Below, piece after piece: positions 17,545-28,155 of a stretch of DNA of 64,000 nucleotides (positions are counted from its first letter, which is position 1; each line of letters begins with the position of its first letter). Position numbers and translations under genes: made by a program. The stretch lies in contig JAQYCV010000019.1 in the NCBI GenBank assembly GCA_028724525.1, forward strand, positions 62,001 through 126,000, written 5' to 3'. Source of the DNA: Clostridiales bacterium (lineage in GTDB: Bacteria > Bacillota > Clostridia > Saccharofermentanales > DTU023). The notes under the pieces were generated by a model. That model made no database searches, was not told where the DNA came from, and saw only the letters and a list, made by a program, of their open reading frames with translations.

Positions 17545-18993
17545 TTAGGGACGACCTACTAGACGGCCCTTGGAAATAGCATAGACATCATCGATCACCA
17601 TCTGGAAAGAAGCTTCGCGACCTTCAGCCTTAGCCCGTTCTTCCAGCTTGGCTCGGTGGAAGTCTTTGAGTTCCTGCGGGAAGGGCAGGTTGCCCATAGC
17701 AAAGACCCGAACCGCCCCATCATTGTCACGGGCCGGTAGCATCTTGCCTGCATTATAACGGCAGGGGGCGAAAGGAATATCAATAACACCGGCTTCTACG
17801 CCTCGAATCGCTCCTTGGGCGATATCCCCCTCACCTAGTTCGATACACTTATCTAGGACACAGCGGGTCTCTCGCATGATGATATCCTTTTCCTGGGCCA
17901 GAGCATGCTCTTCGAGGGATTGGTCGTTGAGCATGGAGATCACTTGTTTAGTGCAGCGGAGGCCAGCGGCGTTTGCTTCTTTGGTAGGCACCCCAATGGC
18001 CTCATGAGGAGTTTTAACAATGACCTTGGTAGCACCCGACAGACCCGCAACTACAGAACCCCAAGAAATAACGGCAAAGGCCTTGGCCTCATCTTGGGGG
18101 AAACCGCCCATCCACTGGTGGAGAACGGTAGTGACTTTGACCTCATCATGGCCAAAACGATGGAGATATTCATCCGTCAAAGTCTCCAGAGTTTTAAGGG
18201 CTGCTACGTCCTGAATCAGGTTTCCGCATTGGCCATAGCCCACAGTAATATCGCGGACACCCTGCTCTGCAGCCAGCAGAGCTTCAATCACGGCAACAGA
18301 GTGGGAAACAAATGGAGGAACCAAGGTTCCGGTCAAGGGGCCATAGGGTTCGCGGTTAATGGATATACCATTTTCTTCATAAAGGCCCGTGAGGCGGTCA
18401 ACATACTGCCAGTCACGAATGGTCCTTTCCATAGGAACGTTTTTCGCATAGGGCAGGTTGTAGGAGATTCCCCCACCTTCGTAGGAGGTAAAGCCACCCG
18501 CATAGGCGATTTCTGTTAAGAGCCGGGCATCCGGAGTCCCATGGCGAACCTGGAGAGGAACACCTACGGATTCGCAAACCTGGCGGCAACCAGCCACCCC
18601 ATGGTTGACTGCGGGGAAGCCGTTGAGCATGGATTTGCCGGTTTTGATGGATTCTTCAATGCCTACCTCGGCCTCTTTATAGCGGTTTTGCCTAGTATAG
18701 GAGTCAATAGTGGTGGGCAGGAGGTCTGCCTCCCCTTCCTTTTCTAGGTATTGCAAAAGCTCAATATGCTTATCGATCAGGGCGACACCAGCCCGGGGCT
18801 GGATCAAGGTCCGACCTTCAGCCTTGGCCTTGGCTAACTTTTTAGAAAAGACTTTTTCTGCAGGAATCGCCTGGTGGTATCTATAAGATTCTTCCAAGTC
18901 GACATCCTTGCCGGTGGGCCATTGGGCGAGGACCTCCTCCCGGAGGGCTCGGAATTCTTTATCAGGTATTTTAACATTACGGATTTCGCTCAT
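17545..18993 (-). CDS. glmE: Glutamate (methylaspartate) mutase, large subunit E
   Basis: 482 residues, the catalytic TIM-barrel subunit that, with the B12-binding S subunit, interconverts L-glutamate and 3-methylaspartate by an adenosylcobalamin radical mechanism. Family-typical stretches are [61 protein letters not shown] and [11 protein letters not shown]. Its ATG overlaps the glmL stop by 4 nt (ATGA), so the two are translationally coupled. The mal gene follows after about 40 nt. Length and order match the clostridial operon. Confidence 0.97.
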
Positions 18994-20372
18994 TGCTCAA
19001 CTAACTCCTTTTTCATAATTCTGAGGGCTAGACTTGGGTCATCTTGGCAAAGCACCCCCATGGCAGAGAGGATATATTTTTGATCTAAAAGGACTTTAAA
19101 GTCCTTAGGACGCAGAGAAGTAGGATTTGCAGGATCCCAAGCAGCATAGGATGCGAGCTTCTTCAACTCGTGGCTATGGATCACGGCCCCCCCTGTTAGG
19201 ACCAGGATATCGACAGATCTGAGGTCTTTGCCTGTTTGAGCAAAAGCCCGTCCCATAGGGGTATAGACTTCTTCAATGGATCCACAGTGCCGACCCACAG
19301 CCACATCAATAGCAGTGCCTACGAGGGCATCATCCAATTGGCGCAATTCCTCTGTAGCAGGCACCCGGTCTGTATGCTGGGCCAAGTCATCGCAGAGGGC
19401 TTGGACTTTGTCAGGAGCCAGCTGGGCTCTTTCTGCCACCAGGTTTAGGCCCTTGGCTTCTAAGATACCGTGCAGGCTGTAGCGCATACCAATATCGCCT
19501 TCCACCGTGCGTTTAGCATAAGGCTCAGGCAAGCCCTTCATGACCGTCGTCATATCTTCAGGCAGGCCATAGGCCATGGAGTAGACATCCGTAGTAGCTC
19601 CACCTGGATCCACAGCAATGAGGTCACCAAGACCCGCTTCCTCCTCGGTACCCTGGGCTAAGACCTTCATGGCCGCTAGCATGGCCGCAGGAGTAGGCAG
19701 GAGGATGTTATGGATCATGCCTTCTATGCGGGATAAGCCCTTGGCCTCAACAATTTTTGCCAAGAAAACCTGGCGGATGGCCTCTTGGGCCTCTGCAATA
19801 TTCAGTTCCCCCAAGCGGGGCATAACATTAGCGACAATGTGGAAGTCAAGCCCTGCCTCTGTAAAAATCTTCCGAATCTTGCGATTGGCAGACCGGTTGC
19901 CTGCCACAATAATGGGCTGGTTGAAGCGGATATCTGCCAAAGCTTGGGCATTTTCTAATATGCAGGCTTGGTTTCCCCCATCCGTTCCCCCAGTCAAGAG
20001 GAAAATATCGGGTTTAAGTTCGGAGATAAGGTCAAGGTCTTCATCCGTGAGTTCATGATCAAAGACCTTTATCACCTTAGCGCCTGCACCCAAAGCGGCC
20101 ATTTTTGCAGCTTCCGCTGTAAGCTCCGGCATGAGGCCGGAAACTAACATACGAAGGCCACCTGCGGCCGAAGAACAGGCCTTATGGGTAATAATCTCTA
20201 TAGGGCCAATCTGACTTTCCAGCTTGCCAAGGGCTTGCTGGAAGCCTTCAAAAATATCCGTTTGGATGGTGGTAAAAGCTGCAGCGGTACCAAGTATTTC
20301 CGCATGCTCAGGATCTACAGCACATAACTTGGTAAAGGTGGAGCCAAAGTCGCTCAGGAGCAGGGCTTTCAT
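18990..20372 (-). CDS. glmL: Glutamate mutase reactivating factor (MutL, ASKHA ATPase)
   Basis: 460 residues with an actin-like ATPase fold: [12 protein letters not shown] (phosphate-1 motif) at the N-terminus, [10 protein letters not shown] and [11 protein letters not shown] further on. It lies between the two mutase subunit genes, as in known glm/mut clusters, where the product exchanges damaged cobalamin on the mutase at the cost of ATP. A GGGAGG site stands 9 nt before the ATG. Length is normal and no key motif is missing. Confidence 0.95.
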
Positions 20373-20446
20373 GCTGCATGACCTCCCCTCGTATAGACAG
20401 ACCCGTATGGCCCAGCCGTCATCTTATACACTTGCATCTTCAGGCC

Positions 20447-20896
20447 CTAGGCTTTGGCCCCATGATCTTGGGAGCCGTCTTCAAGACCTAAATCGTGTTT
20501 CAGCCATTTGATAGTTTCTTCCGGTGTCGTTCCCGGTGGGAAGACCCGGTTGAAGCCCATGGCATGGAAACGCTTTTCGACATTCTCAAAATTCTGTTTA
20601 CCGACGACTATGTTGCCGCCAACAAAGAGCAGAATATTATCCAAACCTGCTTCATCACATTTGGCCCTCAGACCCCGGCAGTCTAACTCACCATGGCCAT
20701 AAAGAGAGGAAACGACAATCGCATCAGCAGCGGTTTCTACGGCCGCCGCTATGAATTCTTCCTGGGACACCATAACGCCTAGGTTAGTGACTTCAAAGCC
20801 CGCCTCATTAAAGGCAAAGTCTAGAATACGGATGCCCACGGCGTGAACATCAGCTCCGATGACCCCAATCACTAGTTTCTTACCGTTCTTTTCCAT
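20447..20896 (-). CDS. glmS: Glutamate mutase, B12-binding small subunit S
   Basis: 149 residues forming a cobalamin-binding Rossmann-like domain. The DxHxxG motif that supplies the lower axial histidine is seen as DVHAVG near residues 16-21, followed by [10 protein letters not shown] and [11 protein letters not shown]. It assembles with the E subunit to hold adenosylcobalamin. Two ATGs are close together. The second (20896) is 6 nt after AAAGGAA while the first has no spacing, so I take the second. The symbol is glmS in the mutase sense, also called mutS; it is not the aminotransferase or the mismatch protein. Confidence 0.96.
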
Positions 20897-20922
20897 ATGC
20901 ATTTCCTTTCAGGCAAAAGCGC

Positions 20923-23428: not shown

Positions 23429-24187
23429 TTATTTTGCTATCTGTGACAAACTTTCTATAAGGGCCTGGGAAATTTTAGCCGCCCCCTGCAGATTAGGATG
23501 GATCCCATCCCAGAAATCCTGGTCAAAATCTGCCGCATTTTGGTAGAGCTCGCGCATGTCCACCAGTAGGAGGCCATAGTGACGAGCCACTTGGGCCGTA
23601 GCATCGGCAAAGTCCATAATACTATTTCCCCGGCCATTTAAGGGCTGGTCACTAAAGTAAGTAGCATTCAGGGGCGTCGTCATGAGCACGATCGTAGTAT
23701 CTGGCAAAGCCGCTTGCAGATATTCCACAATATAAGAGTAGGCACCCAGGAAATTGTCCATAGTCTTGTCCGCGAGGGGGAGGTCGAATTGTTCCTCCGT
23801 ACCCAGATAGAAATCCGAATAAAAGTCGTTCGTACCGCCCATGATGGTCACCAAGGCTGGCTGGGCCGCAACAATCTCCGACAAACGTCCTTCCTGCCAA
23901 AATGCCAGGGGGCCAAAACCCGCCAGGGTGGTTCCACCAATACCCTGGTCTATGTGATTTAAAGCAAAATGCTCAGCAACCGCTGCCTGCCAGTAGCCAC
24001 CATCGGTTATGGAATCGCCGTAGGAAACCCAAACTTGATCCTGGAGGGCCCGTTTGTCAAGCATAATCTTCTCCTCTGATTGGCCTGGCCGAAAAATTAA
24101 GACCAAAACCACAGCCAAAACCAGCCCTAGAGCAAGCAGGGCTAAAAGAAGCAAGGGAAGATCTGGTCTGGCTTGACGATCTTTCAT
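23429..24187 (-). CDS. Membrane-anchored SGNH/GDSL hydrolase
   Basis: 252 residues. A single N-terminal membrane segment (about 10-32) anchors an extracellular SGNH domain. Catalytic blocks are GDSITDG (57-63, Ser nucleophile), GGTND (117-121) and DGIHPN (227-232, Asp/His). Such esterases often remove acetyl groups from wall polysaccharide or hydrolyse lipids. Here the neighbours (glmM, an amidase-like protein) hint at a cell-wall substrate, which is inference. It starts 9 nt after the amidase-like gene. Confidence 0.85.
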   Translation of the reverse strand: MKDRQARPDLPLLLLALLALGLVLAVVLVLIFRPGQSEEKIMLDKRALQDQVWVSYGDSITDGGYWQAAVAEHFALNHIDQGIGGTTLAGFGPLAFWQEGRLSEIVAAQPALVTIMGGTNDFYSDFYLGTEEQFDLPLADKTMDNFLGAYSYIVEYLQAALPDTTIVLMTTPLNATYFSDQPLNGRGNSIMDFADATAQVARHYGLLLVDMRELYQNAADFDQDFWDGIHPNLQGAAKISQALIESLSQIAK

Positions 24188-24196
24188 GGCATAGCC

Positions 24197-25471
24197 CTAG
24201 TCTGCGCAGAAGAATTGATAGGTAGAGTGGGCCAAGGCCTCAGCCAAAGTCATGAGAGTTTTCTCTTTAGAAATACTTTTCATATTATCCAGATTCTGCC
24301 TTTGGGCCACGATAACTTCTACCGAGGTCAAGTTATTATAAACCGCAGACAAGACCTGGCCTTCTCCCACCCCGGTCTGCTTGCCCTGGTAGTTAAGCTC
24401 TGGGAGATACTGGCGGATATTGCGGTCCATTTGCTCTGCCAGCCGCCTCCGGGCAGAGGAGTCATAAGCGACATAGGCCGGCATATCCTGACTGCGCTCT
24501 TCGAGAAGCTCACTCGCGCCATTGCGTTCTGCACTACTGCTACCGTAATAGACGACTCGGCTGCCTTGGGCAGATTTTTCATCGCCTAAGCGCAAAGAAA
24601 TAAAACAGACATCCTTATATTGTTTTTCCATATCCAAAAGCAGGCGGAGGTCGGGCCCCACACCTAGCTGGGTAAAGACCCGGCGGGCCTCTGGAGAATC
24701 CGGGTTAGAGACCGCTGTTTGCAGATAGGGGATAAGACTTTCGATGGCTTGAGACTTAAACTTTTGTTCCTTCAACTCATCAACAAAACGCAGGGCAAGA
24801 TTATTTCCAATAAAGGCCGCTTGGGCGATCTCCGACTGCGAAGAGGCTTGATTCCGAGTCAGAACCACCTTAGCGCCCAGGCTCTCCAGTTGCGTCTGTA
24901 ACATCTCTGCTAATTTATTAAGAATCTGGTCCTGGGCAATGATGACATCGGGGGCGACGGTAGTCTCTTCTTCTTCATCTTCTTCGTTATCAGTGCGCTG
25001 GGCTGCATAGGGAGACACAGGCAAGCCCGTATAGGGATCAGTAGGAGCCACATTGCCAGCAGGTTTTGAGGAGGGCTGAGGGCTATTCCCCCCGGCGGGA
25101 CTCATGATCTGCGGAGCAGTCACCTCACCCGCATCGATAAAGACAGTAATACCCTCCAAGGCGTGCTCATTTTTGGCCCGTCCACGATAAAGGCTGAGAT
25201 CCGCCTTTCGGTATTCTGGGAGCACAGAAGAGGCTGGCCAAACATAGACCCCTCGGTCATTTTTCTGGCTGATATTGGGGACATTGTCATCCTGGAGGCC
25301 TAGGTCGTCCATGAGGGCATACTGGGCCATGGCAAGATCCAAGGGACTTTCCCGCCTGGCTTCTAAATATAACTCCGGCTTAAGCTTGGCCAAAATGAAA
25401 TTTAAGGCCAGGAGGAAGAGGCTGGCCACTAATAATAATGAGAGGATTCTCCATGCCTTGCGTTGTGTCAA
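24197..25471 (-). CDS. Amidase_3-like protein lacking zinc histidines (probable pseudoenzyme)
   Basis: 424 residues: an N-terminal membrane anchor (10-28) and a region that follows the layout of N-acetylmuramoyl-L-alanine amidases. VFIDAGE (110-116) stands where active enzymes have DPGHGG, AKVVLTRN (200-207) matches the strand before the LTR motif, ISLRLGD (291-297) replaces SIHANS, and SVEVIVAQRQN (near 384-394) matches the VE-GF-SN end. Both zinc histidines are thus replaced (E116, R294). A 55-residue Pro/Glu-rich insertion (about 120-175) splits the fold. A TTG start follows AGGTGG. A non-catalytic wall-binding or amidase-regulating role is inference. Confidence 0.6.
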   Translation of the reverse strand: MTQRKAWRILSLLLVASLFLLALNFILAKLKPELYLEARRESPLDLAMAQYALMDDLGLQDDNVPNISQKNDRGVYVWPASSVLPEYRKADLSLYRGRAKNEHALEGITVFIDAGEVTAPQIMSPAGGNSPQPSSKPAGNVAPTDPYTGLPVSPYAAQRTDNEEDEEEETTVAPDVIIAQDQILNKLAEMLQTQLESLGAKVVLTRNQASSQSEIAQAAFIGNNLALRFVDELKEQKFKSQAIESLIPYLQTAVSNPDSPEARRVFTQLGVGPDLRLLLDMEKQYKDVCFISLRLGDEKSAQGSRVVYYGSSSAERNGASELLEERSQDMPAYVAYDSSARRRLAEQMDRNIRQYLPELNYQGKQTGVGEGQVLSAVYNNLTSVEVIVAQRQNLDNMKSISKEKTLMTLAEALAHSTYQFFCAD

Positions 25472-25486
25472 TGAATCTACCCCACC

Positions 25487-26842
25487 TTAATAGGAAAAAC
25501 GCGCCGAAATCAAACGGGCTATGCTTTCCGCAAGTTCTTGAATATGGTCTTTATCCTTACCTTCGAGCATAATGCGAATCTTGGGCTCTGTACCTGAAGG
25601 CCGGACCAAGAGACGGCCTTCTTGGCCCAAGCTCTCTTCTACCCGGCGGCAGGCTTTTTGGACATCAGGATCCGCCATGGCCTGAGCTTTCAAAGCGTTA
25701 TCGACCTCCACATTGAGGAGGACTTGGGGATAGATATCTACAATCTTCCGCAGGTCAGAGAGGGGGCGTCCTGTGCGCTGCCGCACTTCCAAGAGCTTAA
25801 GGGCAGAAAGAATACCATCTCCCGTTGTGGCATGGTCTAGAAAAATCATATGTCCTGATTGTTCGCCACCGAGAATGTAGCCATTTTTCAGCATCTCTTC
25901 TAAGACATAGCGGTCGCCCACTTGAGTCTTAATCAGGCGGATACCCTCCCGGTCAGCCATATGGCTCAGGCCCAAATTAGACATGACCGTAACCACTAGG
26001 GCCTCGCCAGCAAGCTTAGCTTGGTCCAACAGATCTTTGGCAAAAATTGCCAGCATGACATCGCCATCTAAAACTTGTCCATGATCATCCACCGCGATTA
26101 AACGGTCTGCATCGCCATCAAAGGCCAGGCCCAGGTCTAAGCCCTGGTCCAAAACCCTGCGAGCAAGGTTTTCCACGTGGGTAGACCCACAGCAGGCATT
26201 AATATTCAAGCCGTCAGGCTGGTTGGAGAGGACTGTTAAATCTGCGCCGAGGTCCGAGAAGATCTGGGGAGCCAGCTGATAAGCCGCGCCATTGGCAGTA
26301 TCGAGAGCAATTTTCACACCTTTGAGATCCAGCTGGCAGGCGCCTTGCAAATGCTGGCGGTACTGGTCCACCGCTTGCGGGAGACGGAAAACTCGACCCA
26401 AACTGGCACCTAGAGGCTTAGGCCTGTAGTCATAGTAAAGGTCCAGGCTGGCCGCAATGGCATCCTCCACCGCATCTGGCAATTTATAGCCTTCATGGTT
26501 GAAGATCTTGATACCATTATGTTCAAAGGAGTTATGGGAGGCCGAAATGACGACTCCCATCTCGCAGGCACAGGCCGTGGTCAGCCAGGCGATTCCAGGT
26601 GTAGGCACGACACCGACCAAGTAGACATCTACCCCAGCGGACGTAAAGCCTGCAACGAGGGCGGCTTCTAACATATCCGCAGATATTCTCGTATCGTGTC
26701 CAATCAAGACCCTTTTCTGCTCGGGTCTTTGGGCGAATAGGGTATGAGCAGCAGCAAAAGCCAAACGGGAACACAGGTCTGGTGTGAGATCTTGGTTAGC
26801 AATCCCTCGCACCCCATCCGTGCCAAATAATCTTTCCGACAT
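25487..26842 (-). CDS. glmM: Phosphoglucosamine mutase
   Basis: 451 residues, standard length. It converts glucosamine-6-phosphate to glucosamine-1-phosphate for UDP-GlcNAc. The phosphoserine motif is ISASHN with S102. The metal loop is DGDADR and the C-terminal phosphate-binding loop is RPSGTEPKIR. The gene begins 5 nt after the cdaA-ybbR stop. The cdaA-ybbR-glmM linkage is widely conserved in Bacillota, where GlmM can bind and restrain the cyclase. Confidence 0.97.
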   Translation of the reverse strand: MSERLFGTDGVRGIANQDLTPDLCSRLAFAAAHTLFAQRPEQKRVLIGHDTRISADMLEAALVAGFTSAGVDVYLVGVVPTPGIAWLTTACACEMGVVISASHNSFEHNGIKIFNHEGYKLPDAVEDAIAASLDLYYDYRPKPLGASLGRVFRLPQAVDQYRQHLQGACQLDLKGVKIALDTANGAAYQLAPQIFSDLGADLTVLSNQPDGLNINACCGSTHVENLARRVLDQGLDLGLAFDGDADRLIAVDDHGQVLDGDVMLAIFAKDLLDQAKLAGEALVVTVMSNLGLSHMADREGIRLIKTQVGDRYVLEEMLKNGYILGGEQSGHMIFLDHATTGDGILSALKLLEVRQRTGRPLSDLRKIVDIYPQVLLNVEVDNALKAQAMADPDVQKACRRVEESLGQEGRLLVRPSGTEPKIRIMLEGKDKDHIQELAESIARLISARFSY

Positions 26843-26847
26843 GAAAG

Positions 26848-28155
26848 CTAATTCCCTTCCTTATCGAGATCTAGAGGGCGCACACTGATAGACACTGACT
26901 CAGGAGTCAAAGCATAAATTTGCGTGTAGCTGCCCGTGCGAGTTTCGACCTGAACTGGCAGAGCCTGCAAGCCAGGCTGGTCAATGGTAGACAAGTCAAC
27001 ATAGGCCGTCACATCACGGTTAGACAGGCCCTGCAAGATAGACTTGCGGCCTTTGAGGTTGACCCTAATATTTTCAATCTTATACTGGGCAGCCAAGCCC
27101 TTAGCAGCCAAATCTTCCTGGTTAGTGTAGAGCAGCTGCAAATTGTATGGCTGTTCAATGACAGGATTCAGGCTAATCTGGACATAAAACCAGAAGATTG
27201 CCGAGGCCAAGATGGAGACTAGGAGCAGATAAGCCTTAGTTTTTCGGCTAGGTCCAACCAGACTATTTTGAGTATTTTTGCGTGCCAGGGGCAATTTGAT
27301 CCGACGCTTCCGCTCTTCTGCTGCAGGCAGGAGCAGGCGGTGGAGCTGGGTCCTTAGAGCATCTTCGTTATCCAGGGTGTATAGTCTACCTTCAATCGCA
27401 ATAGAAATGGTTCCCCGCTCTTCCGAAACTACCACGGCTATGGTATCCCCGATCTCTGAGGCTCCCAGGGCGGCTCGGTGCCTTGTGCCCAGGTCTTTTC
27501 TAAGGTGGTAGGCATCTGTCAAAGGGACATGAATCCTCGCCGCCGCGATTTGCCCACGACGGATTAAAACTGCCCCATCGTGCAAGGGGGAGCCGACATA
27601 GAAAATTTGTTTCAGCATGGCCGCGGAGATCGTAGCCCCTACTTCTACAGCATTTTCCTGATCTTCTAGGTCACCTAGAGGCGTAGACCGTTCGATCACA
27701 ATGAGGGCCCCGGTCCGTTTAGCAGCCATCTCCCCACAGGCCTGGACAATGGATTCGATAATTTTATGGTCAAAAGCCCCGCCAGAGATATCATCGGAGG
27801 CCACCACCTTAAAACCTGCCCGCCCAACCGTTTCAAGGGCCCGGCGTAGCTCGGGTTGGAAAAGCACAACAAAAGCGATGGCAAATAAGGAGATGGTGCG
27901 GGACAAGAGGAAGCCAAGGGCCGTCAAGCCCACAAGATTCGAGACAAAACCTACAAAGAAAATAAACAAAAGCCCCTTAAGTAGCTGCCATGCCCGAGAG
28001 TCCCTGACCAGCTTCAGTAGCTGGTAGAAGATGAAGGATAAAACCGTAATATCTAGGACTGCAAAAGCAAAATCATAGGGGGTGCCAAGGTAGAGTAAGG
28101 CTTCAATAAGCTGTTGCCAGATGGCTTGGAAGAAGTTTTGTATTTGTTCCCACAT
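26848..28155 (-). CDS. cdaA: Diadenylate cyclase CdaA fused to a YbbR (CdaR) domain
   Basis: 435 residues. The N-terminus has three membrane helices (about 30-50, 58-78, 80-98). The DAC domain follows with HDGA (192-195) and TRHRAALG (224-231), the DGA and RHR motifs that form c-di-AMP from two ATP. At 307-327 a further membrane segment leads into one extracellular YbbR-type domain (about 340-430). In Bacillus, Listeria and Staphylococcus CdaA and CdaR are separate proteins and CdaR has several YbbR repeats; here one chain carries both with a single repeat. No frameshift is needed to explain it. It heads a run with glmM downstream. Confidence 0.92.
   Translation of the reverse strand: MWEQIQNFFQAIWQQLIEALLYLGTPYDFAFAVLDITVLSFIFYQLLKLVRDSRAWQLLKGLLFIFFVGFVSNLVGLTALGFLLSRTISLFAIAFVVLFQPELRRALETVGRAGFKVVASDDISGGAFDHKIIESIVQACGEMAAKRTGALIVIERSTPLGDLEDQENAVEVGATISAAMLKQIFYVGSPLHDGAVLIRRGQIAAARIHVPLTDAYHLRKDLGTRHRAALGASEIGDTIAVVVSEERGTISIAIEGRLYTLDNEDALRTQLHRLLLPAAEERKRRIKLPLARKNTQNSLVGPSRKTKAYLLLVSILASAIFWFYVQISLNPVIEQPYNLQLLYTNQEDLAAKGLAAQYKIENIRVNLKGRKSILQGLSNRDVTAYVDLSTIDQPGLQALPVQVETRTGSYTQIYALTPESVSISVRPLDLDKEGN

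Follow-up and report, generated by a model that had tools for sequence, protein, structure and literature searches.

The gene at 24197-25471 of the analysed stretch of DNA (64,000 nucleotides, hereafter the window) is no stray paralogue but orthologous to a CwlD/LytH-like Amidase_3 enzyme that is anchored in the membrane and linked to an operon, and its product is very probably a pseudoenzyme (probability about 0.93, judged from sequence comparison and a structural model). It stands third in the order cdaA-ybbR, glmM, amidase:

26848-28155, minus strand: CdaA-YbbR fusion, with CdaA_N, DAC cyclase and YbbR domain in one frame
25487-26842, minus strand: glmM, directly upstream of the pseudo-amidase gene, 15 nt between them
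24197-25471, minus strand: pseudo-amidase gene with a TTG start, a single open frame of 424 codons (424 aa)
23429-24187, minus strand: SGNH/GDSL hydrolase, next downstream of the pseudo-amidase gene, 9 nt between them

The start MTQ(R/K)KA is common to the window protein and its congeners. Frames of the length of the CdaA-YbbR fusion were also seen in other families of the order. In the following, f, g and G are working codes, f1 denoting the family, g1 the genus and G000 the genome of the window.

By sequence alone the membership in the amidase family is barely detectable. The Pfam model Amidase_3 gives 19.9 bits over 40 residues and does not reach its gathering score of 27, a search of PDB sequences with the window protein returned 0 matches, and TIGR02883 (CwlD), the NCBIfam model closest to the active orthologs, gives 15.4 bits against a cut-off of 221.55, with values of up to 115 bits for the active orthologs themselves. 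A contig search with the single window protein as query found no relative, and with an alignment as query it found 23. Close relatives among named records are metagenome-assembled Clostridia, some of them filed under Mageeibacillus or Fastidiosipila. Of 148 genomes of the order, 76 contain matches to the pseudo-amidase, and a class-wide search matched 59 of 291 genomes at E <= 1e-8, counted as sequence matches only; outside the order, all matches among those listed are local and reach at most 65.6 bits. A limited search of the open-access literature found no report on the gene or its place in the operon.

The fold was predicted with AlphaFold2 from 24 aligned proteins (mean pLDDT 79) and compared with the PDB, which was the check proposed in the earlier note. 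The 24 top-ranked entries, with Z-scores of 16.3-22.7, are all Amidase_3-type amidases or contain such a domain, after which the score drops to Z 11.0. The best match is LytH (Z 22.7, rmsd 2.0, 169 residues) and the CwlD structure 7rag follows with Z 20.6. The model of an intact sister protein (L115, pLDDT 83.5) has the same structural neighbours. As the alignment behind the window model includes active relatives, the confidence in the fold is owed partly to these. The following parts can be distinguished:

25385-25450, minus strand: hydrophobic helix at the N-terminus, read from the sequence at approximately residues 8-29 and modelled as helix over 3-30, presumed to anchor the protein in the membrane (topology inferred)
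24200-25159, minus strand: Amidase_3-fold domain, residues 105-424, from the structural comparison with the PDB
24935-25123, minus strand: 63-residue disordered loop, proline-rich and acidic, between the positions of zinc ligands 1 and 2
24617-24808, minus strand: helical insert, about residues 222-285, common to active relatives, ending in the conserved R276...D280...Q284-Y285

The earlier idea of a pseudo-amidase with a membrane anchor thus agrees with the predicted Amidase_3 fold and the hydrophobic helix, the topology being presumed, and the LTR strand named there is present. The acidic insertion described with 55 residues is real as such; it comprises 63 residues, proline-rich at first and acidic only near its end, and is predicted to be disordered (pLDDT < 50 at 122-142 and 155-175). 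Outside g1 and g2 the spacing between ligands 1 and 2 is 13-23 residues in every row of the alignment. Within g1 and g2 the loop beside the pocket measures 39-74 residues, and because it is limited to these two genera it did not remove catalysis in the others.

The catalytic positions were compared in an alignment of 75 rows, drawn from 64 genomes of the order, in which some of the 38 rows from outside f1 are additional copies away from glmM. In the window protein they read as follows:

25124-25126, minus strand: position of zinc ligand 1, Glu116 (His in 37 of 38 non-f1 rows)
24932-24934, minus strand: position of zinc ligand 2, Gln180 (Glu in 38 of 38 non-f1 rows)
24590-24592, minus strand: position of zinc ligand 3, Arg294 (His in 37 of 38 non-f1 rows)
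24311-24313, minus strand: position of the catalytic Glu, Ile387 (Glu in 36 of 38 non-f1 rows, one row being cut there)

The window protein has DAGEVT where intact relatives have D-P/A-G-H-G-G, and SLRLGD where these have S-I/L-H. The earlier note had recognized both substitutions and with them the loss of both zinc histidines, and this part holds; its count of two was too low, since the ligand position at Gln180 had been missed and all four positions, three zinc ligands and the catalytic Glu, are replaced. The VE end that it describes as kept is not the catalytic Glu: E385 is located two residues before the catalytic column. Two congeners at about 50% identity share the residue pattern, so that it is not due to chance.

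Across the family the loss is general and takes different forms. The set H-E-H-E is kept in 36 of 38 rows outside f1 and in 0 of 37 rows within it. One of the two outside exceptions, G039, is cut by a contig end with its first three residues intact; the other, G064 of family f4, has Ile, Glu, Ser and Ser on a very long branch and possibly represents an independent catalytic loss. This relative (L081:4073-5350) is very diverged and lies outside the family of the window. Within f1, the row of G016 breaks off at the last position, with two catalytic residues already lost. The residues lost differ from genus to genus: g6 keeps the three zinc ligands and carries Thr in place of the catalytic Glu (5/5), in g5 the second His alone is lost (2/2), g3 and g4 lack the second His and in most cases also the first, and in g1, g2 and g7 all three ligands are gone. 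One syntenic gene therefore offers a graded series of enzyme loss, from a missing catalytic Glu with ligands intact over a single lost His to the loss of all. Columns conserved to at least 90% outside f1 are kept within f1 to only 24, 68, 14 and 28% at the zinc and catalytic positions, whereas many scaffold columns of the same conservation stay at 92-100%, for example (window numbering) P32, L105, G107, G199, A200, V202, G270, D280, G303, Y333 and R341.

The fewest changes on the tree are 4, 1, 2 and 4 for the four positions and 1 for the complete set; G064 was excluded from all of these counts, and the cut rows G016 and G039 from those for which they lack a residue. In the gene tree f1 forms one group except for the placement of the long-branch G064, with which 2 changes are counted. 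A single residue behind the inactivity was considered and rejected, as none of the four positions is lost in every f1 row. The E385 column holds Leu in 94% of the non-f1 rows and in none of the 36 f1 rows scored; as every one of these differs, catalysis may have been lost early by another route. At the old zinc site, E116 occurs together with R294 in 3 of 3 g1 rows, Arg at position 1 together with the kept Glu in 12 of 14 g4 rows and Arg/Asp in 1 of 2 g7 rows; the swap is absent in g3 and mixed in g2, and a charge swap at this site, read from the residues, is suggestive only. Loss of sporulation was likewise considered as a cause and rejected: the cut-off for SpoIVA, a marker of sporulation, was reached in 0 of 148 genomes of the order, and as it is missing also where the amidase is intact its absence does not separate the groups.

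A decaying pseudogene or an assembly error would also explain lost catalytic residues, and the strong divergence of the protein with its Pfam score under the cut-off would fit such a reading. Against it, no inner stop was found among the matches listed, the place in the operon is conserved, three g1 genomes have the same residue pattern, and dN/dS is low, with 0.067-0.205 for the pseudo-amidase in 14 f1 pairs with dS <= 1.2 and 0.037-0.150 for glmM in the same pairs, which come from g2, g3, g4 and g6, none being close enough in g1, the genus of the window, or in g5 and g7. The pseudogene reading is thus extremely improbable and was rejected on the open frames, the conserved place and the low dN/dS; open frames and low dN/dS argue for a maintained pseudoenzyme and not for decay.

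The orthology is supported by the position of the gene. In 36 of 36 f1 relatives having it, the pseudo-amidase gene directly follows glmM on the same strand, with a gap of -3 to 66 nt and one exception of 204 nt in G018, where the frame of glmM is short. A single f1 genome, G024, lacks the gene, and its contig stops just past cdaA. In other families, genus g9 of f3 has an intact amidase 2.7 kb after glmM with glmS (named from its start) between them, G042 (f3) and the f4 genera g10, g13, g14 and g18 have one copy directly after glmM, and genus g28 of f2 has an Amidase_3-like gene near cdaA, with another gene between that is not glmM. Because the gene lies near the same operon in these families, the locus is old, and its function has changed without a new paralogue having arisen. 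Intact catalytic sets in the sister families and none in f1 provide a natural comparison of cutting and binding.

As to function, a regulatory or scaffold role is probable rather than that of a hidden new enzyme. A zinc-free enzyme turned to another substrate might be expected from a pocket-bearing fold maintained under purifying selection, but no new conserved polar set is found across f1, and this alternative is highly improbable. For the pseudoenzyme we tentatively propose, at somewhat less than even odds, the role of a sensor or scaffold that is anchored in the membrane, faces the wall and works together with the CdaA-YbbR fusion and GlmM. The N-terminal helix would hold the protein at the membrane with its domain outside, where it may have retained the binding of peptidoglycan or nascent stem peptides while no longer cutting them, and may face the wall as sensor or scaffold. 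Its likeliest partner would be the CdaA-YbbR fusion, whose YbbR domain is presumably also outside, although this pairing is itself on the doubtful side; a wall-touching neighbour beside YbbR would be a natural input, and the state of the wall might be passed to c-di-AMP synthesis and GlmM. CdaA, CdaR (YbbR) and GlmM of B. subtilis and others are encoded on one transcript and assemble into a complex; CdaA is inhibited by GlmM, and the mode by which CdaR regulates CdaA is described as unclear (PMC8573169, excerpt). That the protein is a fourth, wall-facing subunit of this complex, reporting the state of peptidoglycan via YbbR to c-di-AMP synthesis, is a more specific form of the proposal and an unlikely one. 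A conserved amidase-fold protein encoded beside this complex may bear on what YbbR responds to outside the cell.

A mirror-tree comparison in 33 of 37 f1 genomes gave partial correlations of amidase distances with CdaA-YbbR beyond glmM of r 0.49 for DAC and 0.26 for YbbR (both 0.001 by permutation) and of r -0.11 for GlmM. The signal is weak, may stem from shared phylogeny and is larger for DAC, a cytoplasmic domain, than for YbbR; the gene order may only reflect co-regulation. The pocket residues vary among the f1 genera, so that a common ligand is not evident.

The old substrate groove could alternatively bind uncut peptidoglycan and so anchor or position membrane machinery as a tether. The fold and the N-terminal helix are kept, and g6, with three ligands and no catalytic Glu in 5 of 5 proteins, shows what would be expected for binding without cutting; the pocket residues, however, differ between g1, g2 and g7, and the long loop of g1 and g2 lies beside the pocket. 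A tether is rather unlikely, although peptidoglycan binding as such, which the earlier note had also suggested, is possible.

The earlier note had suggested the regulation of a true amidase. In the genome of the window, which is 93.9% complete, no Amidase_3 or Amidase_2 match was found at E <= 0.001, and none was found in the congener G001 either. An additional Amidase_3 match is present in 5 of 10 g1 and g2 genomes (G002, G009, G015, G019 and G023), on other contigs than the pseudo-amidase in all five; the one in G002 is phage-like in our own reading of its gene neighbours. Since neither family was detected in the window genome or in G001 and only half of the g1 and g2 genomes have another Amidase_3, a dedicated amidase partner is unlikely, and the suggestion is not borne out. 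It can be widened to the activation or inhibition of another wall hydrolase, including NlpC/P60 peptidases, two matches of which are found in the window genome and likewise in G001, in the manner of EnvC, a catalytically dead, degenerate hydrolase that activates AmiA/AmiB (PMC4946905, excerpt). This wider version is quite improbable, as no Amidase_3 or Amidase_2 was found in the genome as a target, additional amidases occur unevenly across g1 and g2, and no link was seen between the NlpC/P60 genes and the locus.

Among known systems the closest precedent for the pseudoenzyme is the mycobacterial CwlM, like the window protein an amidase homologue with lost zinc residues. Not every zinc-coordinating residue of CwlM is conserved, and its essential role is regulatory, as activator of MurA, an enzyme using UDP-GlcNAc (PMC4946905, excerpt). 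The window protein in contrast has lost all four catalytic positions, is linked to cdaA-glmM and has an N-terminal hydrophobic helix, from which its topology is presumed, while CwlM is cytoplasmic without a classical secretion signal; because of this cytoplasmic location the likeness is one in kind and not one of membership.

LytH is a single-pass membrane protein and ActH a Rhomboid-family protein. Staphylococcus aureus LytH, which works with ActH, is the structure closest to the window model, and it is active, whereas the window protein is without catalytic residues. The activity of LytH depends on its binding partner, and CwlD of Clostridioides difficile requires GerS for stable zinc binding (PMC8496864, excerpt). 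For the Rhomboid family no match was found in the window genome and matches were found in 4 of 39 genomes. CwlD serves the spore cortex, whereas no genome among the 148 of the window's order reaches the SpoIVA cut-off. The CdaA-CdaR-GlmM operon of Bacillota has cdaA, ybbR and glmM in the same order as the window (PMC8573169, excerpt), with the difference that in the window cdaA and ybbR are fused into one gene and glmM is followed by a gene for an amidase-fold protein.

On the other side of the pseudo-amidase gene, its neighbourhood with an SGNH hydrolase, claimed earlier together with that of glmM, is correct for the window and was found in 3 of 3 g1 genomes; it is absent at both g2 loci examined and, among the loci compared, belongs to g1 only. 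In the SGNH/GDSL hydrolase itself (23429-24187, minus strand) the GDS, GxND and DxxH stretches are intact as read from the sequence. Further downstream, at 17545-20902 on the minus strand, a glutamate/methylaspartate mutase-like set (GlmL-like, small subunit) lies beside fumarase-like genes, all named by eye.
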